From Roridomyces roridus (lineage: Eukaryota > Basidiomycota > Agaricomycetes > Agaricales > Mycenaceae): a DNA stretch of 64,000 bases. The DNA lies in contig JARKIF010000012.1 of NCBI GenBank assembly GCA_029378245.1, forward strand, positions 1,736,001-1,800,000, written 5' to 3'. The notes under the pieces are model-generated. The model saw only the letters and a list, made by a program, of their open reading frames with translations, ran no database searches and was not told where the DNA came from. Both the position numbers and the translations under genes were made by a program. Below, piece after piece: positions 3,363 to 62,906 of this stretch. Numbering within the stretch: position 1 is the first letter of the stretch; the number at the start of each line of letters is the position of its first letter.

Positions 3363-5353
3363 TTAATGCAACTCAAAATTTTCCTTGTCCGTCTCCTCAA
3401 TCAATTCCCGCACCAGCGCCTCAACCTCCGGAATCCCAAGCTTCTCTTCAGCAAGCCTATCCGCAATCCGTGGTGACCCATCAAAATACTGCGAGCTCGT
3501 GGCGGTAAGTGGAAAAGGAGTACTACTCCCGCCCGATCCATGCCCAATGCGAAGGGAATGCAACGTCAAACGCCCCCGCGCGCGTAAGAAGCGTCCCCAA
3601 TGGGGAATCTCCTCTGGTGTTCCGAGGATGCTGGCCGGCAGAATGATCAACTCTACTCCCATGACGGAGGTGTAGTCAAATCCAACGAAAAATGGTGTGT
3701 CGGGATTTTCGGACATGAATTGGACCATCCGGAGAGAGATGGCGGGTCGAGCGCGCTGATACTCGGAGTGTAGCAGCGCGCGGATGAAGGATCGTTCGCG
3801 GTGAGGGAGACCAACGGATGCGAACGCTAGCCGTTGATAAGTTGCGTCGACAAATAAGCCCAGGGAAACTTACTGGTGTGCGCATAAGCGAGGCGCTCGC
3901 ATTCCTTGCGGTGCCCATCGCGCCAATCGACGCGCTGACACTGCTCGGAACAGTACGCGGCAGTGCTACAGGCTTTGCAGCGCCGAAACTATTCCTTCTT
4001 GTCGATTTTGTCGCACTGACGGTGTTTCAGAGATTTTACATACAGCCGATCGAGACACACCTTGAAATTATAACAGGCGAGCGATGTCGTTCTGCCTGTG
4101 AGTTCCCAAGCCTCGAGGACTTGCATACGCTGATGCAACAACGATTTCAGCGCGTTCCAAAGTGGATACAAGACCGAGGTCGAAAACTCCCGGCTCCGCG
4201 CTAGTCGCTCGAGTTCGTGGAAGGACTTGTTCATTTCCACAACCACAAGATAGGAAATCAACGCCCGAGGCAACACCTCTCTAAGAAGGTCCGGGTACAG
4301 CCCCGCCTCCGAGATTGGTGCGGAGCCCATTTTTGCACCCCACAAGGAGCTTGAGCGCCTGAACGATCCAGGGATAGCCAGGGTTCTCGTCCATGAACCG
4401 GATCAGCAAATTAAGACACAACCCGACCCCGGCTGGCTGCGGAACCAATTCTCCGACCGAGGGGGTGCCAGTAATATCGAGGGTCGATACCAAGGAGGGA
4501 ATCAGTCCGTGCTCCACGATATCCGGACACGCGGTACATACGTTCTCCAGAAACACCAGGAGCGGCGCAATGGTCCCTGCAGCAATGTCGGGCTCCGATC
4601 CCGCCACGATCCGGGATATGTGCTGCGTGACGGTGTGGGTGAATACTTTGATGCTGCTGTCAAATTCCTCCAGCACCTCTGCCACATGTTGAGGCTTCTT
4701 GGTTTCGGGCGCAAGTACATGAAGAGGGAAGCAGTCGAACGACCGAGCGTCGCTATCATCCGCCTACTGCAGGAAGAAGACCCATATCCGGACAAGCAAC
4801 CGATGGATCCCGTTGGTCGCAAGGACAGCCAAACGAGTTTCCGGGTGCTCGCAGAAGACGATAAGGATTTGCGACATCGACATGTGCACCAGCAACCCGG
4901 GCGAGGGCTCCGAATTGATTGCCAGCAGAGCCTCGTAGTAGGACGACAGAAATTGCGTCCATCCCCAAACACCGGTCCAGAGCTCGGGGGCAGCAGCGAG
5001 AGGAAATCGGGAACCGCGCACCAGGGCCCTCAGGAAAGAGGGTGACGTGGTGGCATTTTGATGCGCGGCGGCAATAGCAGGGACTCGTCGAGGATAGTCT
5101 CCGAAGGGATGAGTGAAGGGTTCAAGTTGGCGTGTACAACTGGCAATAAGCCGAGTCTTTGCTCGTCCGACAGCGTGTCTCTCAGGTCACGCAATCTGGC
5201 CACGCTCTTGGACGAGCCTTTCATTGCTGCCAATGCGACCGGCTTCGAGGCTTGATAAGTGCATGACAGGAAGAAAAAGCCAAGTCTTACACGAAGTGAG
5301 TCTGGGAGCTTCGAGATAGCGGTCGCTCGAAGGGCAGGATGGATGGTGGTCAT
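3363..5353 (-). pseudogene. MYND-type zinc finger protein, decayed paralogue of the gene at 20648-22730
   Basis: It starts MTTIHPALRATAISKLPDS and matches the intact paralogue exon for exon. Shared pieces are the helical N-terminal region (VVHANLNPSLIPSE against VYVHTDPSLIPSSD), the ELWTGVWGW / ELWSRMWGW block, a MYND exon (CKACSTAAYCSEQCQ, then WRDGHRKEC) and the C-terminal block (RGRLTLHSLRIGHG against QGRLTLHMMRIPHE). Four lesions are visible. There is a frame slip at an AAAA run near 5049, an in-frame TAG near 4770, a frame slip at a GGGG run near 4345, and a TAG inside the MYND finger near 3985 where the paralogue has a Ser codon. Family members are usually soluble proteins with a C-terminal MYND protein-interaction finger and unknown partners. 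The combination of two stops and two slips makes this a pseudogene rather than read error. Confidence 0.85.
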
Positions 5354-9564: not shown

Positions 9565-10553
9565 ATGTTCTCCCTCACGAAAACCATGTACGTCTCACTT
9601 GCGACTCAGATACCCTCCTAACGAATCGCATTCTGTAGCTGGCCTATTCTTGTGACGGCTTCGGGTGTCTTGTCGCTGACTCTCAACGCACCGACCACCG
9701 CACAGTCCGGCTCGAGCACGACAATCACTTGGACCAGTACCTCTACGGATCCGTGCGTTTACCTCGACTCTGTTTCAGTCGTACTCTGACCATCCCAATT
9801 CCCAGGACTTTCTCTATTGAGCTCGCGCACCCGGATCTCGTGAGTCGGTCAACCCAGGCGTATACTACCCAAATGACCTCGCCTCCCAGAATGCAGCCAT
9901 CGCTGTCGCCAATAACGTGAACCCCGCGAATAATCAAATCACTGTGACCCTCCCCATCGTCCAAGCTGGGTACGCCTCGCGTCTGGCTTGGTTGTGTACC
10001 TCACAACATTTATAGAGACGGATATACACTCGAGGCGGTGAACATCACGGACATCAACCAAGTATTTTCGACGAGCGGCGATTTCAGCATCGCCGCCGCT
10101 CCGAGCCCGAGTCCCAGTTCGTCTACGCCCATCGCTAGCGCGCCACCTTCTGCGCCCATCTCTGTGGCAAGTGTCCCTTTAACGCCCAGCGGTGTGAGTG
10201 GAAGCCTCCCGGCCAGCAGCCTGAGCGTGCCATCCCCTTCTGTGTGAGTGCCCGTTCTTGCTATTTCCGCCGATCCACCCGGTTCCACTGCTTCTGCAGC
10301 GCACGGGCTCCAGCTGTGTGAATCCCTTCCATACTCCCAGACCAACTGACTTGTTTTTAGCACCTCACCCACGGACTCTGCGACAGACAGCTCTGGCCCA
10401 CAATCTACCGATACTTCCGGTGCGGGGACCAACTCGGCATCGGCTGGAACGCCCTCCACGACAAGTGCAGCGCCGCCCAAGCTCCACGCTCTCACGACCG
10501 CGGTGGCGGGTGTTCTTCTGGCGTTTCTGTTTGCCGGCGCGTGGGTCCTTTAG
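9565..10553 (+). CDS. Kre9/Knh1-like Ser/Thr-rich GPI-anchored cell-wall protein
   Basis: Six exons give an uninterrupted 223-residue protein: 9565-9587, 9639-9752, 9806-9839, 9890-9969, 10016-10243 and 10361-10553. All junctions are GT..AG and in phase. The N-terminus (MFSLTKTIWPILVTASGVLS) is a signal peptide. The next 85 residues contain the Kre9/Knh1 hallmarks TITWTSTSTDPTFSIELAHP, AIAVANNVN, GYTLEAVNITDINQVFSTSG and DFSI. A Ser/Thr/Pro-rich stalk follows, then a hydrophobic C-terminus (TTAVAGVLLAFLFAGAWVL) typical of a GPI-attachment signal. Family members act at the cell surface and are linked to beta-1,6-glucan assembly, although the fungal paralogues are mostly untested. It ends about 200 bp from, and convergent with, array member A. 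Confidence 0.88.
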
Positions 10554-10756: not shown

Positions 10757-11962
10757 TCAATCTGCGTATCCAGGAGGCGCCCCGTCCATCGTCCTCATCA
10801 TGATCCCGCTCTCCAAAGTCCTGACCGTCCGCGTATGAAGCGCCTCATTCTGCTGCACGGCCATCTGTAAGCTCTGCTGCACCCCGAGACTCCCGTCCCG
10901 AATATCATCCTGCATCGTCTCGAGGCGTTTGTGTACTTGCTGGAGGCTGACGTGGAGAGGTGAATCCCCTGATGATGATGTCGATATAATTGAGGAACCT
11001 TTGTCCCTCGCGGTGGAGATGAAAGGGGTGATAGTCCCACCGCGCATTTCCGCATCGAGCATCTGCCGCCGGCCTGCCGACATGCGTCTCCGACGCACGA
11101 ATATGAAAATCGCGACGCCCAGCAAGCAGATCGATATTGCACCCAGTATACCGCCTGCAATCGAGCCGGCGGACGTCGTCCTACTACGAAAAATCATTAG
11201 ATTTACACTGGAAGAGTGGATGGGGGTGAAACCTTGATACGGCTGATGACTCGTTGCTGCTCGACGTCGTCAATGATAGAGGGGCTGTCGCACCACTGGA
11301 CTGATCGGCGGAGGGACTCCCCCGTGCGAGATCCGGGATTTTGGATTGAATGATAGATGGACTAGTTGTCGTGGGGGATTCGTGGGGGATGATGGATGGA
11401 CTCGTCGTTGTCACCGATGAAGCTGTTGACGGTCTTGCTTCTGGGCTGGCCGTAGTCCCGGTGTCTACCGATGAAGTAATTGACGGTCTTGCTTCTTGGT
11501 TGGTCGTAGTTGGGGTGCCAACCGCTACAGACGAGTCCGGGCTGATTGTCACGGTCGTCGCAGTGGTGGAAGGGCTCGTAGTCGACGTCTCTTGCGCTGG
11601 ATTGCTGCGTATCTTACAATGAGCCCATGGCACAGGATGGGAATCGCTTATGTACCTTACGGGCGCTTGGATGACAGGAGGACAGAGACCCGGTCCTTGG
11701 AGTACTGTCGGCATCCCAACTCTCTAGTCCCCGCAGGTGAGTAAATGCGTTTGCGAGCAATACGACGGCGACGCACGGTTATATACTGACACTGTCCCGC
11801 CCCTTGGTCATAGTTGCAGTTGAGTATATTCTGGTGAACGTTGGGATTGAAGTTCTGGCTGGTCAATGGCGTATTCGATTCGTCTTCTGGCGGACAGACA
11901 GTGACGTCGAGCTGGCGGCGAGACCGGAAGTGATCGACGGTGGAGAGTGCATCCGGATGCAT
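10757..11962 (-). CDS. array member A: four-Cys, single-pass membrane protein with C-terminal PPxY
   Basis: Four exons (11962-11777, 11723-11661, 11612-11233, 11183-10757) join in frame to 351 aa. The start is MHPDALSTVDHF, with no classical signal peptide. The ectodomain has CPPED, then CNYDQGAGQCQY and GPGLCPP, giving the family's four cysteines. About 120 residues of Ser/Thr/Pro stalk follow, then one membrane segment (SIAGGILGAISICLLGVAIF) and the basic stop VRRRR. The cytosolic part has ITPFIS about 25 residues inside, a coiled-coil-like stretch (QVHKRLETMQ, QQNEALHTRT) and ends APPGYAD. PPxY is a known ligand for WW domains, including those of Rsp5/Nedd4 ubiquitin ligases. The positive-inside rule predicts N-out topology. 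The receptor or adaptor role is inference. Confidence 0.85.
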
Positions 11963-12586
11963 GAGGGAGCGAAGCCACGAGAGACGTGGCAGAGGGGGGA
12001 CCAGAGGTTACATATCCAACCCAGCTTGACGTACGATGGACAATATATCAGGCAAAACAGGTAGCTGAAACGTGCATCTTTGAGAAACAGGAGAAATATC
12101 ATGGGAATCGAGAGCATACTTAGAAATAGTCTCTTTTTCCCGTGGGTCCGACGTTTTGCGCAGAAAACAGCTCTGCATCCAACTGGAGTGGCCGTGGGCG
12201 GCGGCGCCCTCGGCGCGAATCGGGGTCGCCCAGAGTAGGTAGTAACGATCAAACCGGTAGTAGGTATTCGTGCAGGACAAAAGCTCCGCCGTTGGTCTCA
12301 TCGGTAAGGCATCAGACGCACGTTCATGAATCAGGGGCGAGGGAGAAGCAGATGATGGTAGGAAGCAAGAGGGAGGCCAAACAATCACAAAGTTGTGACG
12401 GTGTTCATGATGACCGGAGTTCCGAACTTCCATATCTCCTGTTCAACCAGGCGAAAAGTGCTAAAGCCCGTCAGATGCATGCAGTCTCGCTCTCGAGCAA
12501 ATTCACTGGCTCGGCTCACAATCACAAGCTTTCCTCTCCAAAAATGCCCGCCAGTTTCAACTCCGAAAATTTGAACTTTGCGCTTT
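11963..12586. other. spacer between array members A and B
   Basis: No gene is supported. The region carries the upstream sequence of A and the 3' flank of B. Frames here show no domain and cross stops in every plausible splice. Confidence 0.5.
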
Positions 12587-13280
12587 CTAGCCTACATACG
12601 CAGGAGGAGAATGACCAATCGATTCTCGCTCCACTGGCACACGAGCCTGAAACGGCGCCCGAATAAGATTCGCCGCCTTGGATGAGATCCCCGAAGTCCT
12701 CGTGTCGATCGCGACAGCGTCGAATGGAGTGATGAGAGTTTCTGGATCGACGGCCTTGATTGGCCTTCTGCGCCTCAAATAACACATAGTTGCAATGGCC
12801 GACAGTAACAGCGCCAAGATGCCGCATGCGAGAACGATCGCTGCGCCGGTCGATAGTTTTGGATTGTGAGAACTCTGGACAGTCCCATCAACCGCGGGGC
12901 TGCTGCTCGTTGGCGCCCCACTGGTGCCAGTTGACGGAGTGGTGGGTGTGCTGATTTCAGACGTTTGAGAACTTCTGCCTGCGTTAGCACTCCTTTCGAC
13001 ATTGCATTGGCGATTTACCTGTTATCGGGCAACGAGACGTTGGGGCACAAAGCCGACCCATTCGACAATTTTTGTCCCAATTGCTGAGCGAGTAAGTCTG
13101 CAAGTACGTGTGTCGCAAAATGAGGGTACGCACAGATAGATATCCGCAGACTCCCGCCCCGCCGTTGTAGTTGCAGATTAGGACATCCTGGCCTGGGTTG
13201 GCAAGCGACTGCTGGTTGGCTAGTGGGATGCCCGCTTTGTCTTGGGGTGGGCATTGTAGTGCCTGTCGCGTATTGTGCAT
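12587..13280 (-). CDS. array member B: short PPxY membrane protein without coiled coil
   Basis: Three exons (13280-13134, 13083-13019, 12974-12587) give 199 aa in frame. It starts MHNTRQALQ and has CPPQDKAGIPL, CNYNGGAGVCGY and NGSALCP. The stalk is only about 35 residues. The membrane segment is ALLLSAIATMCY preceded by LSTGAAIVLACGIL, followed by LRRRR and then LITPFD. The tail lacks the coiled coil of A, C, E, F and G but still ends GHSPPAYVG. It also lacks the intron found before the membrane segment in A, C, E and G. The retained ectodomain and PPxY with loss of everything between suggest that these two ends are the functional parts. Confidence 0.85.
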
Positions 13281-13519
13281 GAGGGAAGAGAAAAGGGCAG
13301 TTGAGGTGCGTCGTGGGGTTGGATTAAAAATATGTTGACATCGTTTATGAATCACCCTTCGGAGGGTGTGATGTTGTATCCAACCCCCTTCAGGCACGCT
13401 CCGCATGGGCGCCAGGGAGAAAGTATGTAGCCCGAAAAGACGCTGCCTCACGCCGCGAGATTTGTCGATCCGATACACTGGCTGATCCGGCATTGCATCA
13501 TCCATAACGATGCACGCAC

Positions 13520-14573
13520 TCAAGCTCTGTCATTTGAGTACTCGGGAGGGGAACCATGATCTCCTAAATAATAGTGCAACTCCTGCTCCACCAAAGTCCG
13601 TATCCGGGCTTCGAGCGCCTGGGTCTGCAGTCCGTCATCATCGCCCCGAGTTGATTCGGCGTGGAGCCGTTGACGAGACTCCTGTGAGCTGCCAGGCGAC
13701 GGTTCCTCATCACTTGGGAATTCCACTGAGGTGCCTGAGAAGGGACGGTTAGATTTGGAATCCAGCACCGCGGAATCCGAATGCTGATCGGTGTATTCTG
13801 CCGGCAGATCGACAGCCATGACGGGACTGAACGGAGTGATGTCCGCGTCAGGGTGGGCTTCCTGATCCGTATGTGGCCGCCGCCGCCGCCGTTGACGCTG
13901 GTATACAACCACAAATAAGATGATCCACAGCAAACTGCCCACAGCGCCGAAGGTGATGCCTATGATTGCACCCGTCGATAAATGTCTGGTAATATTTCAG
14001 AATCGTTCATCTTCATTAGGTACACCGAAGGAAGATACCTGGCATGTGTATTTTGAGGCAATGGATTGAGCGAGTGTGAGGACGTGCTCGCGTCGGCCGA
14101 CGAGGGCGTTGTGTTTGGGGGTGACGACGATGACCCAGTGTTTGCATGCGAGGGGGACGTTAAGCTGGCTTGGGAGGCGGAGGCTGTAATCGCGGGCAAT
14201 GTGCTGGTCGTTTTCGCCGGGGTTGAAGGAACGCTTGAATCGACAGAGTTGGTGGTGGGCTGGGCGAGCCCTAGATCAGGGCATGCCGCTGATCCGTTCG
14301 TCAGGTCCTGATCATCTTGCTGTTCCGAATTAGGACAATTGTGGATCCTGGAGCTCACGGTGAGCGCACCAATATGTATCCACACTCCCCCGCCCCATCT
14401 GCGTAAATGCAATCTAGTAGAGTTTGGCTCGTTTGGGAAATAACATGGTGATCCGTCAGCGGTGATCCATTGTTGTCTTGTGCCGGGCATCCAATACTCT
14501 GACGCGCAAGATATGGCATGTGCTGTGCCATGCGGGATAGCGAATAGAGGGAGTAGAAGGCATCCAGATGCAT
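13520..14573 (-). CDS. array member C: four-Cys, single-pass membrane protein with C-terminal PPxY
   Basis: Three exons (14573-14370, 14319-14039, 13985-13520) join in frame to 316 aa. The start is MHLDAFYSLYSLSRMAQHM. Ectodomain motifs are CPAQDNNGSPL, CIYADGAGECGY and NGSAACPDLG. The stalk is about 70 residues of Ser/Thr/Ala/Pro. The membrane segment (IIGITFGAVGSLLWIILFVV) is followed by QRQRRRRR and DITPFSP. The tail ends with ARIRTLVEQELHYYLGDHG and SPPEYSNDRA. Introns fall at the family positions: phase 0 after CGYIL and phase 2 just before the membrane segment. It is closest in the window to truncated member D. Confidence 0.87.
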
Positions 14574-15074
14574 GAAAACAAGAGACCCCGAGGGTGGGGA
14601 GAAGGATGTTTTATACAGTGAGTCAATGCTCATGATGGCAACGGTGAGCGAATCACCGTGAGGTAGCGAGGACTTCTTTGTGCTCTTTTTAGAGCTTGGA
14701 CGTGCGTGAGAAGATCCGAGTAACTTCAGGCACCTCCGCTCGAAGGGTTGAACTGGGTTCAAACACCCGATCATGGTGGCATCGCTTGGGCATGGCGGCT
14801 AGTTTCTTGACTTGAACCACCAACTTCAGAGAGATTGCCTCACAAGTAGATTCTGTCAGGTTTGCGCAGAACAGTTGCTCGAGAAGTAACAGTTGTGCTC
14901 CCGGTCGGGCAAGGCAACGAACAAACATCAAGAGATCCTTACATTGTCGCAACACTGTTGTAGAAACCTAAAAGCATGGATGCCACGAGCTCGAGGTGAC
15001 TATTCACGCGTGAATGGCATCGGAAGCCCGTGTATTTCCCCGAACTACGACTGTGTCCGCTATCACCTGACAGA
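14574..15074. other. spacer between members C and D
   Basis: No gene is supported. Part of the left side is the presumed promoter of C. The open frames (for example 14689-14955) have no domain. Confidence 0.45.
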
Positions 15075-15603
15075 TCAATCCTTGATGGACGCCGAAGCTC
15101 GGTTATCCGACGAGTAATCGGGAGGGGAACTCTGATCTCCTAAATAATACTGCAGCTCCTGCTCCACCAAACCTCGTATGTGCACATGAAGTGTATCCGC
15201 CCGTGGTCCATCATCATCCCCAGTTGGGCTGGCTCGGAGCCGGTGACCAGATTCCCGGGGTCTGCCGGGACAATTGGCGGCAGGGTTTTTGGAATGCGGC
15301 GCCGCCGAGTCAGCTATGCCGACGCTGAAAGGAGTGATGTCATTGTCCGAGTGATTGATTTGATCCGTGTGCCGTCGCCGCCGTCGACGAAGGCAGATAA
15401 CCAGGACGGCGATGATGAACAGCAACGTTGCCGCCCCGGCGCAGCTGATCCCTATGATCGCGCCGGTTGATAGATGCTTGGTCACCCTTGAGGTAGCCGT
15501 TGGAGTGGGTAGATGGTGGGAGGACGCGAGCATATTTGCAAGTCTCCTCCACATTGGCAGGTAGGACGAGCGCCAACGAGAATCATGCCCAGCCCAGATG
15601 CAT
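15075..15603 (-). pseudogene. array member D: ectodomain-deleted copy
   Basis: The membrane and cytosolic half is well preserved: HLSTGAIIGISC, the segment LLFIIAVLVICL, RRRRRR, DITPFSV, then GLVEQELQYYLGDQ and SSPPDYSSDN. Upstream, a start remnant ATGCATCTGGG (at 15603, like MHLDA of C) is followed almost at once by a stop. Only the end of the ectodomain can still be read (NVEETCKYARV, matching xxGAGxCxYxxV). The CPxQD motif and the third exon piece are missing. I infer deletion of most of the ectodomain, leaving a pseudogene or a decoy lacking the extracellular part. It is most similar to C. Confidence 0.75.
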
Positions 15604-15759
15604 CGTGAACGGAAAGTTACGTTCCCGCTCCAGCTAGTTGCAACGACCGAGAATCTGTCGTTCAAAGATCACACCCACCACGGAAACCTGTGTATGATAC
15701 AATGATGTGCGTAGGATTTTCATTGGCGCTGGCGCGGGCTAATCTCACTACATAGTCTA

Positions 15760-17011
15760 CTAATTTGAATATCCAGGAGGAAGAACGTGGTTAGACAAGT
15801 AATACTGTAATTCCTCCTCCAACTGCTGGACTCGCGCCTGGAGCGATTCATTCTGCTTCCTCCCCGGGCCCCCGCTACTATGCGAACCATTCCTCGCCTG
15901 CATCAAGTTGAACAGGAACCTCTGATGTCTCGGGGTCGTTTCATCTTGTTCAAGTGGCTCCGGTGCAGGACTTCCAAAGCGCACACTGGAAATCGTGTCT
16001 GTCGCAAAGGTCTGAACCTGCCGCATCGGTTGAAATCCACCCGGGTCGCTAAAAGGAGTGATGACGGACTCCTCCCGATCAATGTACCGACGTCTTCTTC
16101 GGCACATGCATATGACCACAATGATGAGGGTGATTGCCAGTGTGCCGAGGGTGATGCCGATAATCTGCCCCGTAGATAGTTTTCTGCCGACCTTTTTAGA
16201 TTGATGGATGCCCGGCATGGGAGGTAACCAACCTTGAATGATGAGCTGTGCTCGACATGGGAGAGGACGAGTTGGTGGGTATGGAAACAACACTGGAGCT
16301 GCCAATTGTTGAAGATGAACTTGATATCGTCGCGCCTGATGATGAGGTGGGTATTGCGCTGTGGAACATTCAGTCCGTGTCGAGGAGAAGTTTCTGCCGG
16401 GCGACCTTGTGGATAAGGTAGACACAGACGGGGAGTTCGCGAGTGCCGAAATGATGGTGGTCTCTTTGGGAGGATCGTTAGAGGGAGTGTCTGACGTCGG
16501 CCGAGGCGACGGTGGAGCTTCGGTTGCAATTGAAGCCGCTGGAGACGTCGTCGAAGTTGTACGAGCAGGAGTGTTTGAGGTCTCTGGCGGAGGCGTCTGC
16601 ACCGAGGTGGTTGTTATCCTTCGAGTGGGTGTTGTTGGGCTAAGAGATTTTCGAACATCAACATAACCGGGATATCCTGAGCGAGAACGTACTGTGACGG
16701 CGGTATCTCCACCTCATCATTCAGATCTGGGCACAAGTCCGAATTCGACCCGGCCGATTCAATGCCCCCTCCCCCTGGTGCCTGCCGTTGCGCTGCTCAG
16801 TGGACGCCCAACAGGCGGAATGAAAGTAATGACACACTGAACGGTATGCACATATACCGGCGCCGCGGAGGGGATCGTAAAAACAACCCAGCGTGTTCCC
16901 CTCAGGCTCGCTTTTTAATAGCGGAGTGCCAGCATTATCTTGCAGGGGGCACTGAAGGTTTTGGCGGCGGTGGCGGGTTGTGCGTGAGGTAGAGAGAGGT
17001 AGAGTATGCAT
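15760..17011 (-). CDS. array member E: four-Cys, single-pass membrane protein with C-terminal PPxY
   Basis: Five exons (17011-16838, 16781-16693, 16639-16406, 16358-16233, 16183-15760) give 348 aa with all phases matching. The intron at 16405-16359 has a weak GTCGCC donor but is needed to keep the Ser/Thr stalk in one frame. Motifs are CPLQDNAGTPL, CFYDPLRGAGICAY, DLCPDL, the membrane segment IIGITLGTLAITLIIVVICM, RRRRR, VITPFSD, SLQARVQQLEEELQYYL and LPPGYSN. An older start at 17021 (MHPDAYSTS, like A) is in another frame. The present in-frame start is MHTLPLSTS. Confidence 0.82.
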
Positions 17012-17556
17012 CCGGATGCATGCAAGAGGGAAGACCCTGCGAGGAAAAGGGAAAGATGGAGGGAGGAAGAGTCGTTTTGGATCCAGATAAGTGTTGAGAT
17101 GGAACAGCAGATGTATCTTGCCGTCGTTGATTCGAGATTACTGCGGCTGATATGGCTCGCATGAAAATAGCATACCATCACTAGGCCTGCACCGTCCATG
17201 GGTCGAAGCTTTCAGGACAGGTCGTTCAGGTTTTGTCTTGGTTGAAATTCTTCGACTTGTTTGCAGACATGTCGAGTTCGTGCCCTCAATACCACCAAAA
17301 TAGAGGTGGGCTCCGGTGCCTGGAAGGATAGCTTTCCGCTGCAGCAACGAACATCGAGAAGCTTGGTGTTCATGATCATGATATCTAAAAGGGTGCACGA
17401 TAAGGAATTGATCGCGGCAGAAACGGTAATTGATCGGGACGAGAAAAGGCGAAAAGTCGTCTGAGTCCCGGTCAGGACGTAGCAATGAACGCACAGCCAA
17501 TGATTGGGATTTTTCGTTTTGTTTTTCATTTGAATCGGACTGTCCGAAGTCATTTA
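17012..17556. other. spacer between members E and F
   Basis: No gene is supported. It includes the 16-bp palindrome at the E start and purine-rich leader sequence. Small frames on both strands lack domains. Confidence 0.45.
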
Positions 17557-18298
17557 TTACAGCTGTGATTCATAGTCTGGAGGAGAATGATTCGGTGTCT
17601 CCTCGCCCAAATAACCTTGCAATTCGGACTCTAGATTCTGCAATCGAGCCCTCAGCGCATCGTTTTGCCGCATCAAACTCTGATCCTTGTCATCAGCCCT
17701 CGTGGATCCGGGTGTCCGCTCCAGAGTTTCCTCAGAGGAGGAGATCCCCGCCGCCAGCTTGGTAGATGCCGTCCGTCGCAATGGCGACTGTGAATTTACA
17801 GCGCTGAAAGGAACGACGGTGTCCTGGGTTTCGACTAGTTTCCGTCGGCTTCTTCGGACGCGTAAGAACGCCCAAATTGCCCCAGCAAGCAGCAGCAAGA
17901 ATACGACTGCGCCGACCGTTATGCCTGCGATCGAAGCGCGGGATATTTTATTCGTTGAAGTGCTGTTGGTTTCTTCTCAAATCAGTTGTGAATGTGGTGG
18001 ATGGATGGCATACACTGAATCGGACTGGAGGGAATCCGGGCATGACTCGGGGACTGAAGGCTCCGCTTGCGTCAGCAGGTTGCCTTTCTGAGCAAGGCGT
18101 CGCAGAAGTGCACCATGATCAGCCAGGCTCACCATGGTCCCTTAGAAGACGCACCGAGGAGTCATAGTGGCACGTCGTTCCGGTGCTATAGCTACAGAAG
18201 ATCTCGCTGGCACCGCTACTAGCATCCAGTGCTCCCATTTGGGAAGATAGCGGGTTGCCGTCCTTGTCTGTCGGTGGACACACGAGGATTTGAGACAT
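17557..18298 (-). CDS. array member F: divergent PPxY membrane protein, stalk nearly lost
   Basis: Exon 1 (18298-18155) starts MSQILVCPPTDKDGNPL and reads CSYSTGTTCHY, so the usual GAG before the third cysteine is replaced by GTT. The next exon (from about 18086) gives SVPESCPDSLQ. The last exon has SIAGITVGAVVFLLLLAGAI as the membrane segment, then RRSRRK, VVPFSA, QNDALRARLQNLESELQ and SPPDYESQL. Between SCPDSL and the membrane segment there is almost no Ser/Thr stalk. I cannot find a splice pair that keeps frame there (about 18000-17960), so F may be damaged or use an unusual site. The ends are clear; the middle is uncertain. Confidence 0.6.
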
Positions 18299-18791
18299 TT
18301 TGGCTGTATTATTGCGGTGCCTGATACGGGTGCGTGCGCTGAGGAGGAAGGATGAGAGGCGAGAGAACTTAGCCCCGAGACAGTGCGAAGGCCTGGAATA
18401 AATATCTGAGCTCCGGGCTCCCGCGTCAGCTTCTGTGATAGATGTGGAAGACGCGTTGGTGCCTTACGATCCCGAAACACGGTCCATGGGTCATGTCATG
18501 CCTGGAATGTGGAAAATACTAAACAATGAGCGGTTCGAGCAGTATGGGGTGACCAATTTGTAGCGCAGCACATCTAGTACCGAGTTTTCAAGGCGGTGAG
18601 TATTCCTTGGAAGCGCCACACTACGAGCGACTTGAACAGTGATGAAAGATGCATTGAAGATTCAATTCAGGAACCCGGTTGGCGATCCCCACGCTGCATG
18701 CACAGCCGGAACAATCAAGTCAGGTCCACCTGCGAATGCGACATTTTTTCACTCGGCGGATCCATCTGAACGATTCTATAACGCGCCTTAA
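18299..18791. other. spacer between members F and G
   Basis: No gene is supported. It contains the upstream region of F and the 3' flank of G. Confidence 0.45.
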
Positions 18792-19941
18792 TTAGTCCAA
18801 ATACCCAGGCGGAGAATGATCTATCGCCTCCCCGCCCAAATACCCCTGCAGCTCGCGCTCCAGCGTCCGTATTCGTATCCGAAGCGCTTCATTCTGCTGC
18901 ATCGCCTGTTCCAAATTCGCAGTACCACTCCCCTCGGCTTGCGCAGCTTCAAGCTGCTTATGGACCTCCCGAAGTTGGGCAGCGAGATATTCCTGCTGAT
19001 CCCGGGAGGATGACGAGGGCGTGAGCACTGTGCTGGATTTATCAGACATCGAGAGCCCGAGTCGCCAGGGAGTGCCTTGGGAGCTCGAGCCGGCTGTGGT
19101 ATTAGCGCTGAAGGGATGGGCCGTTTCCTCGGGCTCGTCTGGCTCGACTTGTCGACGTCTTCGTCGAGTATTCAAACAGAGAAGGATCAAGATCCCGAGA
19201 AGTAAGCATGCGACGGCGCCAACGGTGATACCTCCAATTGAGCCCGGAGATAGTGTTCTAGGAGCATATAAGTGTGGGCTTTGTCGTACGGTGAGAGGAA
19301 GTACTAACCTCAGTTGAGCTTTAGCGCCAAGGGATGATGTGGTGGGCGCAGCGATCGAAGAGTCGCTGGAACTGGGGAAGAAAGTACTCCCAACCAGTTG
19401 TGCTGACGATGGGAATAGCGTGGTCGAGGACGCCAGGTTGATATTGGAATTAGACGTCGGCGAAGCTGAAGAGGACGGTGGGAGAGAGGACGGTGGTGTT
19501 GGCGGTGGGGTAGTGGAAGACGAAGGCAGGGCAGTCGATGCTGTAGAACTAACACTCCCGTCCGTAAACACCCAAAGTATCATAGTATACACTCACCTCC
19601 GCTGGGACGCAATATTAGCATTGGCCACAGGACACAACCCCGACCCAGTCGATAGCGTCCCGTCCTTCATTCAAATCCATGAGCAAGACTTCTCGGTCAT
19701 AACCACAAACACGCACCACAAGATAGGCACACTCCCCCGCCCCACCATCGTACGTGCACGAAAAGATGTTTTGACTGAATGACCCGTTCGGGCCCGAACT
19801 CGCATTTGCACTGCTACCCTGGCCGCTCAACGGCTTGCCCTCGTCGTCTTGCGGTGGGCAGTTGAAGCCCTGGCGGCGCTGCCGTATCCGCACCGATTGT
19901 GAAGAAGAGGGTGTAGGAGCGACGATATCCAGATGCTGCAT
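18792..19941 (-). CDS. array member G: four-Cys, single-pass membrane protein with C-terminal PPxY
   Basis: Four exons (19941-19717, 19664-19597, 19554-19309, 19257-18792) join in frame to 334 aa. It starts MQHLDIVAPTPSSSQ. Ectodomain: CPPQDDEGKPL, a longer Ser/Asn/Gly insert, CTYDGGAGECAY, then GSGLCPVAN. The stalk is about 80 residues of Ser/Thr/Pro. The membrane segment SIGGITVGAVACLLLGILIL is followed by NTRRRRR and AHPFSAN. A coiled-coil-like region (LAAQLREVHKQLEAAQ, QQNEALRIRIRTLE) ends in ELQGYLGGE and HSPPGYLD. It is the rightmost member and is divergent from MYND-2, with about 700 bp between the two starts. Confidence 0.87.
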
Positions 19942-20647: not shown

Positions 20648-22730
20648 ATGACAACGACTCACCCTGCCTTCCTTGCGCGCAACATTTCGCGGCTCCCAGT
20701 CTCTATCAGGGTAATCTTCTTCGTAGACATCCCATCGCAAACGCTGACTCGTTAATTCACTTCCCCAGTCCGTCGCCCGGGGTGCGCTGGATGGATCTTG
20801 GTCGGACATGGAGGCTCTAGGCCTCGTCATCCTGCCAAAGACCGAGATGATCGGACTCTTGCCCATTGTCTACGTGCACACCGATCCGTCATTGATCCCA
20901 TCCTCGGACGCGTTGGACTTGGATACCTTCGCCGACCCACCGACTACACCATCCCCGCCAAAGTCGATAAAGTTCGCTGTCGCGAATTTTATGCTCCTTG
21001 CGTCGATAGTCGATCACAACCCGCATTTCCCCGTCGACGTGATCCCGGAGCTATGGTCCCGGATGTGGGGCTGGATGGAGCTCATTTTGGCGTACTCCGA
21101 CTGCACGGCAGCTGCCAGACCGAATTCTTGTGAGATGTTGAACATCCAGGGATCTCTTTGTCAAATCATCCGCGAATTCAGCCGACATGATACAAGCAAT
21201 GCTGTGATATTCGTGACGCCGGGCGTGCACCGTATGCTTGCTGCAGCATGGGCATCGATCATACCCAAGCTGCCGAACCCTCACAATCCGGACGCTGTGT
21301 ATCTGGCGACCCTGCCCCTACTTGCCATGACGTTCAATACCGAGACGTCAGATGACCTCGCCGAGATCATCGAGGGCTGCGGGGGCAGCATCACAGACCT
21401 CGCAAAGCTGTCTTTGGACACCCTTTCTATCATTGCGTCCAACCCTGAATGGGACATCGGCCCAGGAGTACTTCCCGAAGTTTTCAAATTCTTGGATTCT
21501 ATACACTCGCTGGACCATGCAGTTGCGGAAACCCTCCAACGTTCTGGTCTCGTCCCCGCCTTGGTGCGGACCCTCGGTGTGACAGGGCCTCCACCATCGC
21601 CGTTGGAATCCCTTGGGGGCCTACCGACCCCAACCAAATTGTGCGCCATTTGGCTCATCATATCCTTGGATACGACGCCTGGACACCCGTGCTTTTGGAC
21701 GATTCGAGCGCTTCGGGCCGGCCTTCTCGGCTATCTCCTCTATTGGGCTCGAAGACTGGAAAATGCACCAACCCCAGAGCTCGGAGAGCTCGTGGGGATT
21801 GTACTCCCGTCTACTCTGATTTTCCGTTCAGCCATCGTCCAGATGCAGCGATCTCTGCTAGAGGTCGAGACAGAATCTCGCAGCGACCAATTTATTCGCT
21901 CTTCTTTGTATCCCACTTGGGTAGCTTTGCAGTCCTGCTTCGATGAACGCGCGGAACTTCTGGAAGCTTGGGAGGCATCGGGGCGAGTCTCATTCGTCGA
22001 ATGTTATAACTCTCAGGTACTGTGTATTCAACGACATATATGCAAACTGAGCTCGCCCGCAACTAGTGCAATAAAATCAATCAAACAAAATCATTTCGGC
22101 GTTGTGCAAGTTGCCGCACGGCCGTGTATTGTTCAAAAGCGTGTCAGGTAGCAGATTGGAGGGGCGGCCATCGCGACGAGTGCACACCTCTTTATGCTCA
22201 ATACATCGGTTCGTACTTACTTGCCATCTCACGACTCCTCAATATTCAATCCTGTAAACACCCATCCAGAGCTCTCTCGGATTCTTCCCAAGCACCGCGA
22301 TCGCTCGTTCCTTCGGGTATTGCTCGATTCGGACTACCGCCGTCTGCAGGTCGAAATCGGCGTCAAAATGGTGCAATGCCTCTCAAATACCCTCTTTACA
22401 GCAGCGGATCTCTGCGTCGTCTTCAACTACGCGGACGTCACCGGTGTCCAGACCTCCGTCTACCATGTGCCGGTTGATATTCCGCTGCTTCATCACTCCC
22501 GCTGTTTGCGCTCGCAAGGCCGACTGACGCTGCATATGATGCGAATTCCGCATGAGAGGAGTGCGACGGGCGTTCCGTTCCCATTGCATTCGGCCAGCTC
22601 TCAATTTAACGATGGATTGTTGCGGATTGCGAGCCGTGTGGGTGTTGATGCGCTTCGGGACGGGCGGGTGGACGTGCTTGTGCGGGAGTTGATTGATTCG
22701 ATAGATGAAGAGTATCTCCCGTTCCATTAG
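20648..22730 (+). CDS. MYND-type zinc finger protein, intact paralogue
   Basis: Four exons (20648-20710, 20769-22016, 22067-22208, 22270-22730) give 637 aa with phases 0, 0 and 1. The start MTTTHPAFLARNISRLP matches the decayed paralogue's MTTIHPAL. The long exon is a helical region without a named domain. The MYND finger (about residues 438-475) reads CNKINQTKSFRRC, CASCRTAVYCSKACQ and WRGGHRDEC, giving the expected Cys/His pattern. The C-terminal 150 residues contain DSDYRRLQVEI, RGLTLHMM-type (QGRLTLHMMRIPHE) and VDVLVRELIDSIDEEY. Related fungal proteins are cytosolic or nuclear with unknown partners; MYND fingers bind proline-rich peptides. That is worth noting next to PPxY-bearing genes, but no link is shown. 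Confidence 0.88.
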
Positions 22731-41198: not shown

Positions 41199-41986
41199 TC
41201 AAGAGTCTCTGGTAGTTATCTCATACGGATTGAATGCCAATACCGAGCTGTCCTTCCGCGTGTGATCGACAGGCCGCGCAGATGGGAAATGTGGCGGCCG
41301 ATGAAACCTTCGAAAACGTATCGCCTGAGATGCGGGCGCGTAAAGGCCAGGGTGAAATTTACGCGCTGATGTCAAGAACGACGAGAGGTCGTCTGGATAG
41401 ACGCGCGCCAGATGATCCAGTGCCCTCCGAAACAGATACTGGATGTCGTACTTGTGGCTGAGCCGAGCAATTCCTAGGAGGTCTCCCGGCGCGGCTGGAG
41501 GCGGGGGAGGCATGAAGAAGCTGTCACTCAGTGACAGCTCACGGGACGACAACAAGCCACGCACCTCGAGTCAAAAATGGCCCTGAGAAACGACTCCACC
41601 TCTCTTGAGTTGTCTGGCAGCACCACGATAGGCATTTCGTCCGAGTTGGACGCCCTCTGTGGCATGGATAGTATATCGCTGAAGACAGACGACCGGGCAG
41701 CCAACACCGCGCCTGACACGAAGAATTCTCGGTCTTGGGCGCGGATGACCAGGCTGCCGTCGGAGAACCATAAGTCTGCCACGCGAGTGAATGCATTCGC
41801 TTGGTCCTCTATAGCCGGAGTGTCCTGTGTGCAGAGTGTGCGGATGAGGTCTGAGACAAAGGACAAGGCCGCTTGAAGGCCACTGATGTAAGCATCATCT
41901 GATCGGCCTCGTCGTTCCGAGTTTGCCGCCCCACAATGCCGGATTACTATGGGGTACTGTACCATTTCGATCAATTCGAATGGCAC
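41199..41986 (-). CDS. BTB/POZ domain protein, start region replaced by a MITE
   Basis: Two exons (41986-41565 and 41520-41199, phase 2) give 247 aa. The BTB core reads TRVADLWFSDGSLVIRAQDR, EFFVSGAVLAARSSVFSDIL and PIVVLPDNSREVESFLRAIF, then GDLLGIARLSHKYDIQYLF and RRALDHLARVYPDDLSSFL. BTB domains mediate homodimers and Cullin-3 contacts. The first residues (MPFELIEMVQYP) are encoded by the terminal repeat of the palindromic MITE at 41954-42189, so the native start is gone or displaced. The C-terminus is shorter than usual for this family; ELPSWDELTALKEAV lies in another frame just past the stop, suggesting a late frame slip or unspliced intron near 41220. The paralogue at 54545 is a pseudogene. 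Confidence 0.72.
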
Positions 41987-42189
41987 TTTGGGCTGTGACT
42001 TTTCATACGAATGGAACCATTAGTAGCCGAGCCCAAAAAGGCAATTTGATCCGTCGGCTAAGCTCGGCTATCACCGGCACACCTCGGCAGAGCCAAATCG
42101 CCTCCGTGACCCTGTGACATACGAAAAATTCCGTATGAAACGGGGCTTGTGACTTGTGACCATTCGAATTGATCGAAATGGTACAGTAC
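41954..42189. mobile_element. palindromic MITE, about 236 bp
   Basis: The left end GTACTGTACCATTTCGATCA plus ATTCGAATGG is repeated inverted at the right end (CCATTCGAAT plus TGATCGAAATGGTACAGTAC), a perfect 30-bp terminal inverted repeat. Secondary inverted similarity (CATACGAA / TTCGTATG) occurs inside. Target duplication is uncertain (ATGG on both sides is possible). Confidence 0.82.
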
Positions 42190-43493: not shown

Positions 43494-45768
43494 CTACAAC
43501 TTGTTTGCGGCGGCCGCCTTGAGAATCATATCCGCCGCCTTTTCCGCGATTCCGTACAACCCCAACGTTGTGTGAGGGAACACGCTCAGCGGCATGACGG
43601 AGGCATCAGCTACCCGCAGATTTGTCGTGCCTGTGGGAAGGCGTAAGAAAAGAATACCTGTAGTTGCGTGCACGCACCGTATACAATTAATTCAGGAGAC
43701 ACCACCCCGCCCAACGCCTCGGGCATCATCGAGTTGGATCCGATGAAATGAATTCCAGGGGTGTAGGTCGCAAGGACCCAGCTCCTCACCTCGTCATCCG
43801 TCGCATCGACTGGCGGAACTCCACTCTGCGCCAACGCATCACTCGTAAGGAGATCGCTGAACGGCGGTGTAGTCGCAGCTTGTGCAATTCCCCTGGCCAT
43901 GCGCATTGCAATCTGGACGTCAATGTCTACAGTGAGGAAGCGCGTGTCGACGACGGGGTCCGCCGAAGGGTCGGTGGTGTTGATCCGGACAGTGCCACGC
44001 GAGAGCGGGAGGATCGATTGTGACCAGGCGTCGAGGACTGTGGAGCCGGGGGTAAAAAAGAGTTCAATTATTGGGTCTGCAGTCGGGTTAGTAAAGCGAC
44101 GTAAACGTGACTGGGTACGCACGGTCAATGCGGTAGGCGTCTGCCATGACAGATGCCTGCGCTTTGAAGGATTCGGCGTTCACCACACCGCCTACGGACA
44201 ATGTAAAGTCGGCGGACGAGTTGGACAGGGCTTCGCCAATTATGTTGGTGCCTTGTAGGAAGTCGTTAATCACGGTTGAGTTGTTAATCCCAGGGGTCAC
44301 GCACCATTCGACCCAAAGGCAAGCGTCGCCGTGGGATGCCCGACGACAATGCCGAGGAGAACTTTATCGCCCGCGGTAACATTCGTGTTGTTCGCAGAAG
44401 GATTAAGCGGTAATGAGACGTTCGTGAGCAAGATCTGGTCTTGAAAATTCGCGCCCACTCCAGGGAGGTTGAGTACGGGTTTGATTCCGAGAGATTGTAG
44501 GAAGCTGCCAGTTCAGTGCCCCACAAGAGAATGTAGATATTGTTCAAATACCTCGCGTTGCCAATTCCACTGTGTTGAAGGATCGCGGGGGACTAGACGC
44601 CTTCAGTGATGATAGAGTGAGCGGGAGGGAAAGCTCACGTAAAGTGCACCCGCAGAAACGACAACCTCCCTCGTGGCAGTAAAGCTCATCACTTTACCGC
44701 CCGCCGTCGGCTGCACCAACACCCCCGTAGCCGTAATATTCCCTCCTGCTGCTCCTTTCGTACTCACCTCATTCACGATATGGTCAGTCAGCACCGTCAA
44801 TCCCGTCCTGCCCTGGGCCTTCGGGTACAGATACGACCACGCAGAAGAAGACCTTCGATCCGCCTGGAGCGTGTCGTTGAAATGAATATGGTGGTAATAA
44901 TGCGCTACATGGCCGCCGGAGAAGCCCGTGCCCAGGTCGGGGGAGACGGAGAGGCCATACACGGATGGGCTCGTGCACGTTTCGATGGCAGCGTTTTGCA
45001 GATCAGGGGCGACGAAGGGCGTAGCGTAGGATACGCCTACTGGGCCGGCGAACCCGTGTACAACGCGGACGTAGTCTGCCCCGTCGGCACGCTGCGCCGC
45101 GTCTGGGGGTGAGAATGTTTCTGATTTTTGCATGTATCTCAGAGTAGGATGAGGATAATGAGGTTCAGGGTGGTAGGGAAGACGTACGGGAGAAAATCGT
45201 TCCACCCCCATCCGGGATTTCCAAGAGCTTCGAGGGCACTCATGCCTGCGAATGTCGGACGCGAACCCATCATGGCGTTGATAGCACTTCCTCTATGCAA
45301 ACGATCAGTGCTTGCGGATACAAAATCTGGCAGCTTACCCGCCGAGACAACTCCCGCTGTCAATCGTCAATACATACAGTAGCTAGGCGAGACAGTGGTA
45401 CGCACTGAGTCAAAGGCAACGAGCGAGTGCCATTCGCTCCGACTTGAGGCGGCGCGCTCATCTGAAAATGGCACGGAGAAGGCCTGCAGAGTGGATCAGT
45501 ACCGCACTCAAGTGAAAGAATGAACCGCGACGAACGTCCCAAAAGTCGTGAATGGGTCATTCACCACCTCATTGTCCATGAGATCTGGCCCACGTTCGAC
45601 GACGAGCACGGTATGGTTCACAGCGAGGCGATTCGCAATAGCCAACCCCGTCGTCCCTCCTCCGATGACAATAAACTCGTATGAGGTTTCGAGTCTTGTG
45701 GTGTCATTGGTGATTGAAGTTGCGCCAACGAGAGCGGGCAGGATGACGGATGCGAGGAGCAGAAGCAT
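43494..45768 (-). CDS. GMC oxidoreductase (FAD-dependent alcohol oxidase/dehydrogenase type)
   Basis: A multi-exon gene. MLLLLASVILPALVG is a signal peptide, so the enzyme is probably secreted. EFIVIGGGTTGLAIANRLA is the dinucleotide-binding GxGxxG-type motif and VLVVERG its acidic strand end. LGG + GSAINAMMGSRP (spliced) is the first GMC signature. Further blocks are NPGWGWNDFLPYVF, GPVGVSYATPFVAPDLQNA and REVVVSAGAL (second signature region). Near the C-terminus, GIHFIGSNSMMPEALGGVV contains the catalytic-region His, followed after an intron by NLRVADASVMPLSVFPHTTL and a final helix (AEKAADMILKA). Secreted GMC enzymes of mushrooms oxidise aryl or sugar alcohols and make H2O2. The substrate cannot be assigned. 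No frame break was found. Confidence 0.85.
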
Positions 45769-46287: not shown

Positions 46288-47135
46288 CTACTGCCACACG
46301 CCAAGTGGGAGTCGCACAATCGCCGTCTTCTCTGCCTCCAACATCTCGCTCACACCAATATAATATGCGATGAGCGCGCCCGCGATCCCAAATACGCCAC
46401 CAGCTTTGGTTAATCTGAGTTTGAAATTAAATACACCAAATTGAATCGAGGTGAGCGGCGTACCTGACGCTGCCGGTAAATTCTGCAGCGATGAGTGTGG
46501 TGTAGCACATCGAGAACACGCCAAGGAGGGAGGAATATGCGAGGTTGACGCGGATGACGGCTAGCCTGGGCGTCCAAATGTGTTCTCAGCCTTCAGTCCG
46601 TTCTCCTCTCGATTGACGTACAGGAAAAATAGTGTGAGCATCAACCACACGATGAGGTATATCCCAATCGCGTTAGCGAGCTCCTGTGGGTCTTCGTACG
46701 CGTCCGCGATCCCGAAGAATGGGATGAATATGCTGCCGTAGGACATCCAGAAGGAGCCGTACGATGAGAAGACTGCTCGGGCGGAGTTATCAATGTATAT
46801 TTTCTGGCATCCAAGGCGTGCGCACCAGTAGCACCAAACACATTCCCGCGTGGAAACTGCCACATCCCAGCAATGAACTGCGTCAATCCCCCCGCAAACA
46901 TCGCCATTCCCAATACGATATTCGAGTGTGTGACGGCGCGCGTTTGGACATTGACCATGGAGAGAATAAAGGTTGTGCCTGCGAATGCGAAGAGGCCCAT
47001 CGGGACGGGGTTCGCGATGCCCGAGGGGTGGGCGGGACCCTCGGTGGTGGGAACCATTGGCCCGCGTTCGGTGGCGTTACGACCGGGTACGTAGTGTTCG
47101 CGATATTCAACACTGGTTTGTTCTTTGTCCGACAT
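46288..47135 (-). CDS. GPR1/FUN34/YaaH-family acetate-type transporter
   Basis: It starts MSDKEQTSVEYREHYVPG. The family signature NPxxxGLxxFxxTTF appears as ANPVPMGLFAFAGTTF at the first membrane helix, followed by VLGMAMFAGGLTQFIAGMWQ, FPRGNVFGATG, (spliced) VFSSYGSFWMSYGSIFIPF, GIYLIVWLMLTLFFL, (spliced) LAVIRVNLAYSSLLGVFSMC and GGVFGIAGALIAYYIGVSEM. Six membrane helices are evident. A GTGCGC intron (phase 1) and a GTACGT intron (phase 2) restore the frame exactly. These proteins carry acetate or ammonium-linked flux across the plasma membrane. The likely role is monocarboxylate uptake. Confidence 0.88.
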
Positions 47136-49858: not shown

Positions 49859-49866
49859 TATAAATA
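49859..49866 (+). promoter_or_regulatory. TATA box of small-protein gene 1
   Basis: TATAAATA lies 90 bp before the ATG at 49949, followed by a pyrimidine-rich leader. Confidence 0.6.
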
Positions 49867-49948
49867 CTACGACCGGACGCCCTCAATCTTCAGTTCACTC
49901 ACCACCTCTCAACTCACCCACTTCACTCATCCACTTCTTCTCTTAACA

Positions 49949-50419
49949 ATGTCTATCCGCGCTGTTGGAATTGCCACCGCCCCCGCCGGTGTTTCCCCCG
50001 CCGACTGGTCCGTCAAGGTCCAGGCCCTCGCCGACAAGACCCTCGCTCTCCCCGCTGCGTCGGCCATCTCCAAGTACACCCTCGTGCGTCCTCCCACCTT
50101 CCCTCCTATCCCGTCGTTCACCCCTACCTCCTATAGCTCATCCCCAGCGACGAGCTCGCCTCCAAGCTCGCTGGCGTTGACGTCAAGCACGCCGCTGGCC
50201 TCCCCCCTGCCCCCAACACCATCGTCATCGAGTTCGAGTTCGCCGTGCGTCTCCTGGCTTTCCTTCTTCCCCGTTCCTTACTTACATCTTACGCAGAGCG
50301 CTGAGGCTCTCCTCGGCTTCGTCGGTGACTCCGAGACCCAGGCTCTCCTCGCCGGTGCCCGCTCTGAGGGTGGTGCCGACGGTTTCCTCTTCACCGTCCA
50401 GGCTGTTGTCAAGAAGTAA
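49949..50419 (+). CDS. small conserved protein 1, 121 aa
   Basis: Exons 49949-50083, 50137-50244 and 50297-50419, both introns phase 0. It starts MSIRAVGIATAPAGVSPADW and continues VQALADKTLALPAA, LIPSDELASKLAGVD, NTIVIEFEF and GGADGFLFTVQAVVKK. The paralogue at 53547 has the same intron positions and about half the residues identical. No named domain; the size and beta-alpha pattern suggest a small cytosolic barrel, which is inference only. A clear TATA box and strong C-rich codon choice suggest good expression. Confidence 0.8.
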   Translation: MSIRAVGIATAPAGVSPADWSVKVQALADKTLALPAASAISKYTLVRPPTFPPIPSFTPTSYSSSPATSSPPSSLALTSSTPLASPLPPTPSSSSSSSPCVSWLSFFPVPYLHLTQSAEALLGFVGDSETQALLAGARSEGGADGFLFTVQAVVKK

Positions 50420-52820: not shown

Positions 52821-53462
52821 GCCCACGGCGTCCCTTTGTTCTGGCGCTGTGGCCTTTCGGGTGCATTGCGCATCATAAAGAGCTGATGGCTGTGCGAGTG
52901 CCACTTCATTGTTGTCGGTGTGGCACACGACTGATCATTGGCCTCGTGGACGCGGGTTTCTCCGAGGCGACTCCCTCGTGGAGGTTGGCTCTCACGATAT
53001 CCAGCACGTTGCGCAGAACGACGCCGACACCCGCCGACAAGCGACATCTTCGGAGGGTTAGCCCATGTCCATGTCATGGGAGGCGGCGTCGACGCACTAA
53101 AATGTAGGCTCAACGAATGCTACTGAATGACCGGAACTGGCGTCGCATATTTTCTCGGGATGCACGCGCCGATGTGTTGGGGGCGCATCAGATCGAAGCA
53201 TCACCGCCTCCCGACAGGTATATCAATCTTTTTCCAGTCTCGTTTCCCACAAAATTGAAGGTTGCTAGACTGCGTGCGGGGTGCGGGTAACTTCATCGCC
53301 GCACCATGAACATGCCATTAACACGGTGTATCATTGGTGTATCACCTTCAATCTCGATGGAACTCAATCAACCGCCGACTTGCAATCACAACCTCTGCGG
53401 CGGCCGCACCTTGCGGGGCGAGTAGCAGGCTCCGAGACGTGGCAACCACAAACGCGAAATCG
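52821..53462. other. divergent intergenic region
   Basis: It lies between the hypothetical gene and small-protein gene 2, which start outward. No gene is supported. Confidence 0.45.
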
Positions 53463-53470
53463 TATATAAA
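53463..53470 (+). promoter_or_regulatory. TATA box of small-protein gene 2
   Basis: TATATAAA, 84 bp before the ATG at 53547. Position and spacing match gene 1. Confidence 0.6.
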
Positions 53471-53546
53471 CTGCTTCGATTCATCAGTCCAACTCATCTC
53501 AAGCCCCCTCCTTCACTCCAAACCACCAACCCTCTACATAACCACA

Positions 53547-54544: not shown

Positions 54545-54860
54545 ATGGACGAACAAGAAACCTCAACAAACACGTTTACCCGCGTGGCAGACCTATGGTT
54601 CTCCGATGGCAGCCTGATCATACGGGCTGAAGATCGAGAATTCTACGTTTCGGGCGCGGTGTTGGCTGCACGCTCGTCTGTCTTCAGCGACATGTTATCC
54701 ATACCGCAGGCGGCGTCCAATTCAAACTCAATGTCCATCGTGGTGCTGCCAGACAAATCGGGAGAGGTGGAGTCGTTTCTCAGGGCCGTTTTTGACTCGA
54801 AATGCGTGACCTCGTTGATGTCCCGTGAGCTCTCACCCACCGACCTTCACACAGCTTCTT
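54545..54860 (+). pseudogene. BTB/POZ protein paralogue, first exon
   Basis: MDEQETSTNTF, then TRVADLWFSDGSLIIRAEDR, EFYVSGAVLAARSSVFSDML and VVLPDKSGEVESFLRAVFDS match the BTB gene at 41.2 kb. Where that gene has the splice donor GTGCGT, this copy has ATGCGT, so the donor is dead. The second exon begins at CTTCTT (54855) and is cut by a TIR element at 54861; it resumes at 57003. Confidence 0.85.
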
Positions 54861-62872: not shown

Positions 62873-62906
62873 GATAACAATGTGGGGATGGTGATCCTAG
62901 GTTTAG

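Follow-up and report, generated by a model that had tools for sequence, protein, structure and literature searches.

Seven same-strand loci in Roridomyces roridus

Within a 64,000-nucleotide stretch of the Roridomyces roridus genome (assembly GCA_029378245.1, contig JARKIF010000012.1, positions 1,736,001 to 1,800,000; here called the window), seven loci on the minus strand, A to G, form a tandem array running from 19941 to 10757, exactly the span for which an earlier note had claimed seven paralogous membrane proteins. In every locus a transmembrane (TM) helix is followed by a poly-Arg stop, a PF motif and, at the C-terminus, PPxY. As read from their sequences, the array genes appear to be fusions of two modules, an outer four-Cys domain and an inner PPxY tail, each of them spread more widely than the array and joined here minus a signal peptide. 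Positions below are those of the window, lengths are in amino acids (aa), and splice sites in the gene models were picked by eye.

18792..19941, minus strand: gene G, 332 aa; exons 19941-19717, 19664-19597, 19548-19309, 19257-18792; end PPGYLD
19597..19941, minus strand: four-Cys ectodomain of G (exons 1-2), the type example; phase-0 intron after CAYLV
18792..19257, minus strand: TM/poly-Arg/PF/coiled-coil/PPxY module of G (last exon, entered in phase 2)
17557..18298, minus strand: gene F, 207 aa; exons 18298-18155, 18087-18014, 17962-17557; stalk nearly absent; PPDY
15760..17011, minus strand: gene E, 348 aa; exons 17011-16838, 16781-16693, 16639-16406, 16358-16233, 16183-15760; PPGY
15075..15603, minus strand: truncated locus D; start remnant MHLGWA, then a stop, at 15603; TM/tail open reading frame (ORF) 15554-15075 (159 aa), PPDY; no four-Cys ectodomain
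13520..14573, minus strand: gene C, 316 aa; exons 14573-14370, 14319-14039, 13985-13520; PPEY
12587..13280, minus strand: gene B, 199 aa; exons 13280-13134, 13083-13019, 12974-12587; tail short, lacking the coiled coil; PPAY
10757..11962, minus strand: gene A, 350 aa; exons 11962-11777, 11723-11661, 11612-11233, 11180-10757; PPGY

The single architecture that the earlier note ascribed to all seven loci stands for the TM helix, poly-Arg stop, PF and PPxY, but D has no ectodomain, B no coiled coil and F almost no stalk. In all six genes with an ectodomain, intron 1 lies in phase 0 directly after CxYxx (one residue later in F), and the last intron, ahead of the TM helix and tail, is in phase 2. 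The six intact models share about 40% identity. A profile search of public proteins with the six aligned array proteins, which gave at least seven matches at E ≤ 0.01 among 7982 scored candidates, returned R. roridus protein FB45DRAFT_1030456 (NCBI; here P0001), which equals the gene G model at 100% over 332 aa. Between C and D, nonsynonymous divergence (Ka) is 0.32 and synonymous divergence (Ks) 0.67, a ratio of about 0.48 over 126 codons. In searches of the genome itself (the fungal assembly of 90.8 Mb that contains the window), ectodomain queries gave one array, so that no second haplotype of it was seen; the right flank as query retrieved, besides its own sequence, three diverged pieces from its contig.

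The two modules and their probable placement in the membrane

Alignment of the six ectodomains leaves C-P, D, P-L, C-x-Y, G, C-x-Y and C-P invariant. Compared with the previously described motifs CPx[QET]D..G.PL and GAGxCxY, the G of G.PL is missing from A and GAG is missing from F. A consensus-like ectodomain query of the genome produced 11 matches (E 6e-11 to 0.06): the six cluster genes, two on contig C13, one on C157, and an equally scoring pair split between C57 and C158. By eye, the loci on C13, C157 and C57 (L090-L092) appear to encode secreted proteins of glycosylphosphatidylinositol (GPI) type, with a signal peptide, the four-Cys domain (in two copies in L090, on C13), a Ser/Thr/Pro-rich stretch and a hydrophobic C-end. 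Cluster and secreted-type genes share the homologous domain with its four cysteines, and soon after Cx[YF] both have a phase-0 intron, the position and phase of which agree in 4/4 domain copies of L090-L092 when the DNA is read by eye; hhalign pairs the two domains at 97.9% (E 6e-13). Unlike the array proteins, in which the TM helix runs on into a charged tail, L090-L092 have a signal-peptide-like N-terminus and a GPI-type hydrophobic end, and lack an Arg stop and PPxY tail (by eye). The outer domain therefore appears to be a module also used in secreted-type proteins of this genome, and the suggestion of a surface-type outer domain gains from it: three other genomic loci with the four-Cys domain read as secreted.

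Searches beyond the genome returned little for this domain. The ectodomain region of P0001 found only itself among 14 candidate proteins, a result that gives no measure of how far the domain extends outside R. roridus and Mycena latifolia; the domain regions of L090-L092 drew no Pfam match at E ≤ 1, and the ectodomain profiles had no sequence match at E ≤ 10 among solved structures. A match on C46 (E 0.195), the only one outside the array in its search, was dropped; its locus holds an HSF-like gene (by eye).

In the tails, 8 of 73 gap-free columns are invariant across the seven loci, PP.Y supplying three of them and PF two, and mean pairwise identity outside PP.Y is 33%. PPxY falls within the last 16 residues in 7/7 real tails (paralogues, and so not independent) against 194 of 140000 shuffled ones (0.14%). 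The earlier note had listed the letters of all seven motifs correctly and placed each within 15 residues of the end, which fails for D alone, where PPDY begins 16 from the end.

A consensus-like tail query yielded 56 matches at E ≤ 0.001 among 74 candidates in the genome, a count swollen by near-identical copies from other contigs and by three matches interrupted by stops; the G tail as query gave 20 at E ≤ 1, of which 14 have E above 0.05. Seven tail matches lie in tandem within 15 kb on C96. Among the 50 loci from both tail searches (L015-L064), a tail ORF was found in 49 when searched without PPxY, the one lacking it (L021) being gene E, which has PPGY. All 26 distinct tails (best tail ORF per locus, those at least 90% alike merged) carry PPxY within 30 residues of the end, in loci that were retrieved with queries containing PPxY and with a merging step that concealed one exception (L019). 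When the query region ended before PPxY, 9/9 matches (55 candidates; one match being the query's own gene) carried PPPGY at or near the C-end, with 22 residues following it in P0009. Set against the 33% identity elsewhere in the array tails, the 7/7, 26/26 and 9/9 agree with the claim that PPxY is under constraint while the rest of the tail varies. A bare PPGY-stop pattern occurs at 14 places in the genome; of eight that were read, four give a frame ending in PPGY, and none of these has a visible link to the array family.

The same tail class lies under at least four other ectodomain types, mostly judged by eye. L020 has a KNH-type ectodomain (Kre9/KNH, Ig-like; 25.9 bits against a cut-off of 24.6), whereas the KNH matches of P0004 (21.5 bits) and L017 (16.4 bits) fall below that cut-off, and Pfam does not list the KNH family at E ≤ 1 for the whole of P0004. 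Cys-rich, jelly-roll-like and LTWSGG types were recognized by eye. These unnamed tail-class proteins (L017-L064, P0004, P0008-P0016), often ending SxWALGLSDExPPGY, differ from the array in their ectodomains and share with it the TM helix, the Arg stop, PF (in many, not all), and an RIRxLE-type coiled coil followed by a C-terminal PPxY, a succession from which, in the cluster, only B departs by missing the coiled coil. By hhalign the cluster tails align with the broad tail class at 95.5% (E 1.5e-8, 37 columns) and with the KNH-type tail class at 97.5% (E 6e-12, 59 columns), both comparisons including coiled-coil and PPxY columns that can inflate the score. The inner tail thus looks like a module common to many proteins with other ectodomains in the same genome. 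The stand-alone unmatched family of the earlier note is not supported, as both halves belong to wider, still unnamed families of this genome. As to named families, Pfam gave only matches below curated cut-offs for all seven models, and NCBIfam none above cut-off for P0001, P0002 (a relative from M. latifolia) and one secreted-type relative.

The best 11-residue mean hydropathy at the N-terminus ranges from -0.29 to 0.83 in the seven array models against 2.14 to 2.83 in L090-L092, a lack of signal peptide on which the earlier note is silent. P0002, with nearly the array layout, likewise has no signal-peptide-like N-terminus. A hidden upstream signal-peptide exon was considered and rejected: a scan of 500 bases upstream gave eight hydrophobic ATG frames at 5/7 loci, not conserved and strongest at A. 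A lost upstream exon also explains the missing signal peptide poorly, because the secreted-type relatives encode signal peptide and four-Cys domain in one exon. In the array proteins, 5-6 basic residues fall in the first 12 after the TM helix and 1-2 before it, and by the positive-inside rule we infer an N-out/C-in orientation that would put PPxY in the cytosol. An AlphaFold2 model of G has helices at residues 184-212 (TM), 262-285 and 290-318, with a predicted local distance difference test score (pLDDT) of 72-96 in 10-residue helix blocks except the last TM block (56). The outer domain contains a beta hairpin (pLDDT 72-89), and the tail helices stop before the PPxY segment. Against solved structures, Foldseek with this model returned no match at E ≤ 0.001 among 51.

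Surroundings of the array

A near-palindrome, CATGCATCYGGATGC, occurs in three mismatch-free copies on the minus strand (11949-11963, 14560-14574 and 17008-17022), each placed precisely where a gene begins (A, C and E respectively). None of 100 shuffles had any mismatch-free copy; at up to three mismatches seven copies were found, a number reached in 14 of 100 shuffles and so at chance level. In the copy at E the first ATG (17021) is out of frame and the in-frame ATG is 17011, so DNA rather than peptide may be conserved there.

Adjoining gene A, 9565-10553 on the plus strand encodes a Ser-rich KNH-like protein whose end looks GPI-type by eye; its 21.7 bits fall below the cut-off of 24.6, and one intron is uncertain. 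KNH-type domains elsewhere in the genome bear the tail class of the cluster. Frames that look similar by eye, 20748-22730 (plus) and 3363-5045 (minus), lie on either side of the array. For 20748-22151 Pfam reports no match at E ≤ 0.01, and diverged pieces of it are present at C24:1829891-1832333.

Farther along the window lie the following:

41528-42019, minus strand: BTB/POZ-type frame, passing PF00651 with 23.2 bits over 20.5
54407-54907, plus strand: closely similar BTB/POZ-type frame (by eye)
43610-44179, minus strand: C-terminal part of a GMC oxidoreductase (Pfam)
46641-47468, minus strand: GPR1/FUN34/YaaH family protein (Pfam)
49712-50419 and 53322-53879, plus strand: two similar frames with the common stretch APAGVSPAD (by eye), the first with no Pfam match at E ≤ 0.01
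58708-62896, minus strand: Copia-type retroelement, with RVT_2 at E 1.1e-67 in 58708-60309 and overlapping integrase- and gag-like frames (by eye)

Proposed function and its alternatives

We propose, at a probability of about one half, that the array encodes N-out/C-in single-pass, two-module surface proteins whose PPxY docks a Rsp5/Nedd4-type ligase and thereby controls turnover of the proteins themselves or their partners. The TM helix would act as a reverse signal-anchor, the coiled coil would form dimers or clusters, and PPxY would dock the WW domains of the ligase. Once the ectodomain is engaged or clustered at the wall, either the protein or an accompanying partner would be ubiquitinated and taken up by endocytosis. 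Because every array tail holds 1-3 Lys, self-ubiquitination is possible. On the ligase side, clusters of three WW matches with HECT matches within about 0.5 kb downstream occur on C480, C223 and C18. This is the layout of Rsp5/Nedd4, and such candidate loci could read the PPxY. Precedents for docking of a ligase by PPxY are Rcr1-Rsp5, Comm-Nedd4 and PRRG4-Nedd4, as given in PMC5578492. A single TM helix with a PPxY on the cytoplasmic side, as the positive-inside rule places it, is present at 7/7 loci, and the array appears to be a modular fungal variant of this known kind of single-pass PY-motif adaptor, with an output that is predicted.

Several observations weigh against this proposal. None of the seven array models has a signal-peptide-like N-terminus by hydropathy, so delivery of the proteins to the surface is assumed. 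Only G, among the six aligned proteins, was itself returned as a public protein by the profile search; for A, B, C, E and F the joining of exons therefore rests on consistency of splice phase and homology rather than on transcripts. The AlphaFold2 model of G is weak overall (mean pLDDT 60, predicted template modelling score 0.26), the 62-residue tail of B has no coiled coil by eye, and P0002 lacks the PF motif. As to the link between the array and its relatives, a genome search with one secreted-type sequence recovered the secreted loci, yet at E ≤ 1 it missed all six cluster genes, the P0002 ectodomain as query matched G alone, and weakly (E 0.017, same genome), and the tail scores are open to the inflation described above. 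L019 has PPLAY where its near-identical copy L017 has PPPAY (the two lie on C179 and C469), a natural loss of PPxY. Finally, Rsp5 is not required for the activity of Rcr1 in chitin deposition, according to PMC5578492.

An alternative is that the proteins work inside the cell, as secretory or endosomal transmembrane ligase adaptors in the style of Rcr, Comm or Shisa, of which Ear1 and Ssh4 are further examples: the outer domain would bind luminal cargo, PPxY would bring the ligase, and the partner would be degraded. The layout fits, since PMC5578492 gives Comm, Rcr1-Rcr2, PRRG and CYYR1-Shisa a short outer domain, which is rich in Cys in the case of Shisa and CYYR1, a single TM helix and a cytoplasmic PPxY or LPxY, and describes Comm and two PRRG proteins as lacking signal sequences; so does the scarcity of Lys in the tails (1-3 against 8-13 Arg). 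The array differs in its Cys pattern (CP..CxY..CxY..CP), in the added coiled coil and PF motif and in a tail that a single genome combines with several ectodomains. Pfam lists no Rcr- or Shisa-type family for G up to E 10 or for A-F up to E 1, a null that assumes that these models are in the library and that is subject to HMMER filters, which drop most weak matches. Moreover, the nearest relatives of the outer domain read as secreted wall-type proteins, and the long Ser/Thr stalks of most members fit the cell surface. We regard this alternative as unlikely, though credible.

We also consider it distinctly unlikely that the array encodes wall-integrity mechanosensors in the style of Mid2/Wsc, with the stalk as a spring, a tail signalling to a Rho guanine nucleotide exchange factor and mitogen-activated protein kinases, and PPxY setting only receptor turnover. 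Such sensors (PF04478, PF01822) share with the array a Ser/Thr stalk (Ser/Thr fraction ahead of the TM helix 0.23-0.34 here), one TM helix, an Arg-rich stop and a short tail; protein E comes close to the Mid2 cut-off (21.8 against 23.2 bits), and a tail relative from Mycena venus carries the UniRef name Mid2 domain-containing. Yet no member passes that cut-off, Mid2 not being listed for A, B, C, D and F (E ≤ 1) or G (E ≤ 10), and Pfam lists WSC for none of the seven models. Many unrelated families match the TM helix and stalk weakly, which points to effects of composition; F is almost without a stalk, and the array differs further in its missing signal peptide and C-terminal PPxY module. A decaying, largely non-functional array, with the signal peptide lost, D truncated and tails drifting, is very improbable: D without its ectodomain exon, a signal peptide in 0/7 models unlike the secreted relatives, the C/D ratio of about 0.48 and a matching public model for G alone would suit it, but six intact models keep splice phases, Cys and PPxY at about 40% identity, and the M. 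latifolia protein comes close to the array in layout and likewise lacks a signal-peptide-like N-terminus.

A far broader and speculative reading, which we consider distinctly unlikely, is that Mycena and Roridomyces possess a large birth-and-death repertoire of receptor-like proteins, in which one conserved intracellular module is swapped under many ectodomains, several of them in tandem arrays, and surface recognition runs through recruitment of a WW-HECT ligase. To our knowledge, such a cell-surface recognition layer has not been described in fungi, and no publication on the protein family of the array was among the records listed by literature searches. The parts of PMC10197012 concerned treat intracellular NLRs, HET and gasdermin proteins, and no surface receptor family.

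Since one genome carries the four-Cys domain in secreted-type proteins and again in tailed ones that have no signal peptide, the way in which a wall protein turns into a transmembrane one becomes testable. The tail family is unnamed in the libraries searched, and a shared tail, if true, would let one output cover the whole family. If the tail is indeed a common output, PPxY and coiled coil would link dozens of unstudied mushroom proteins of surface type to one kind of ligase.

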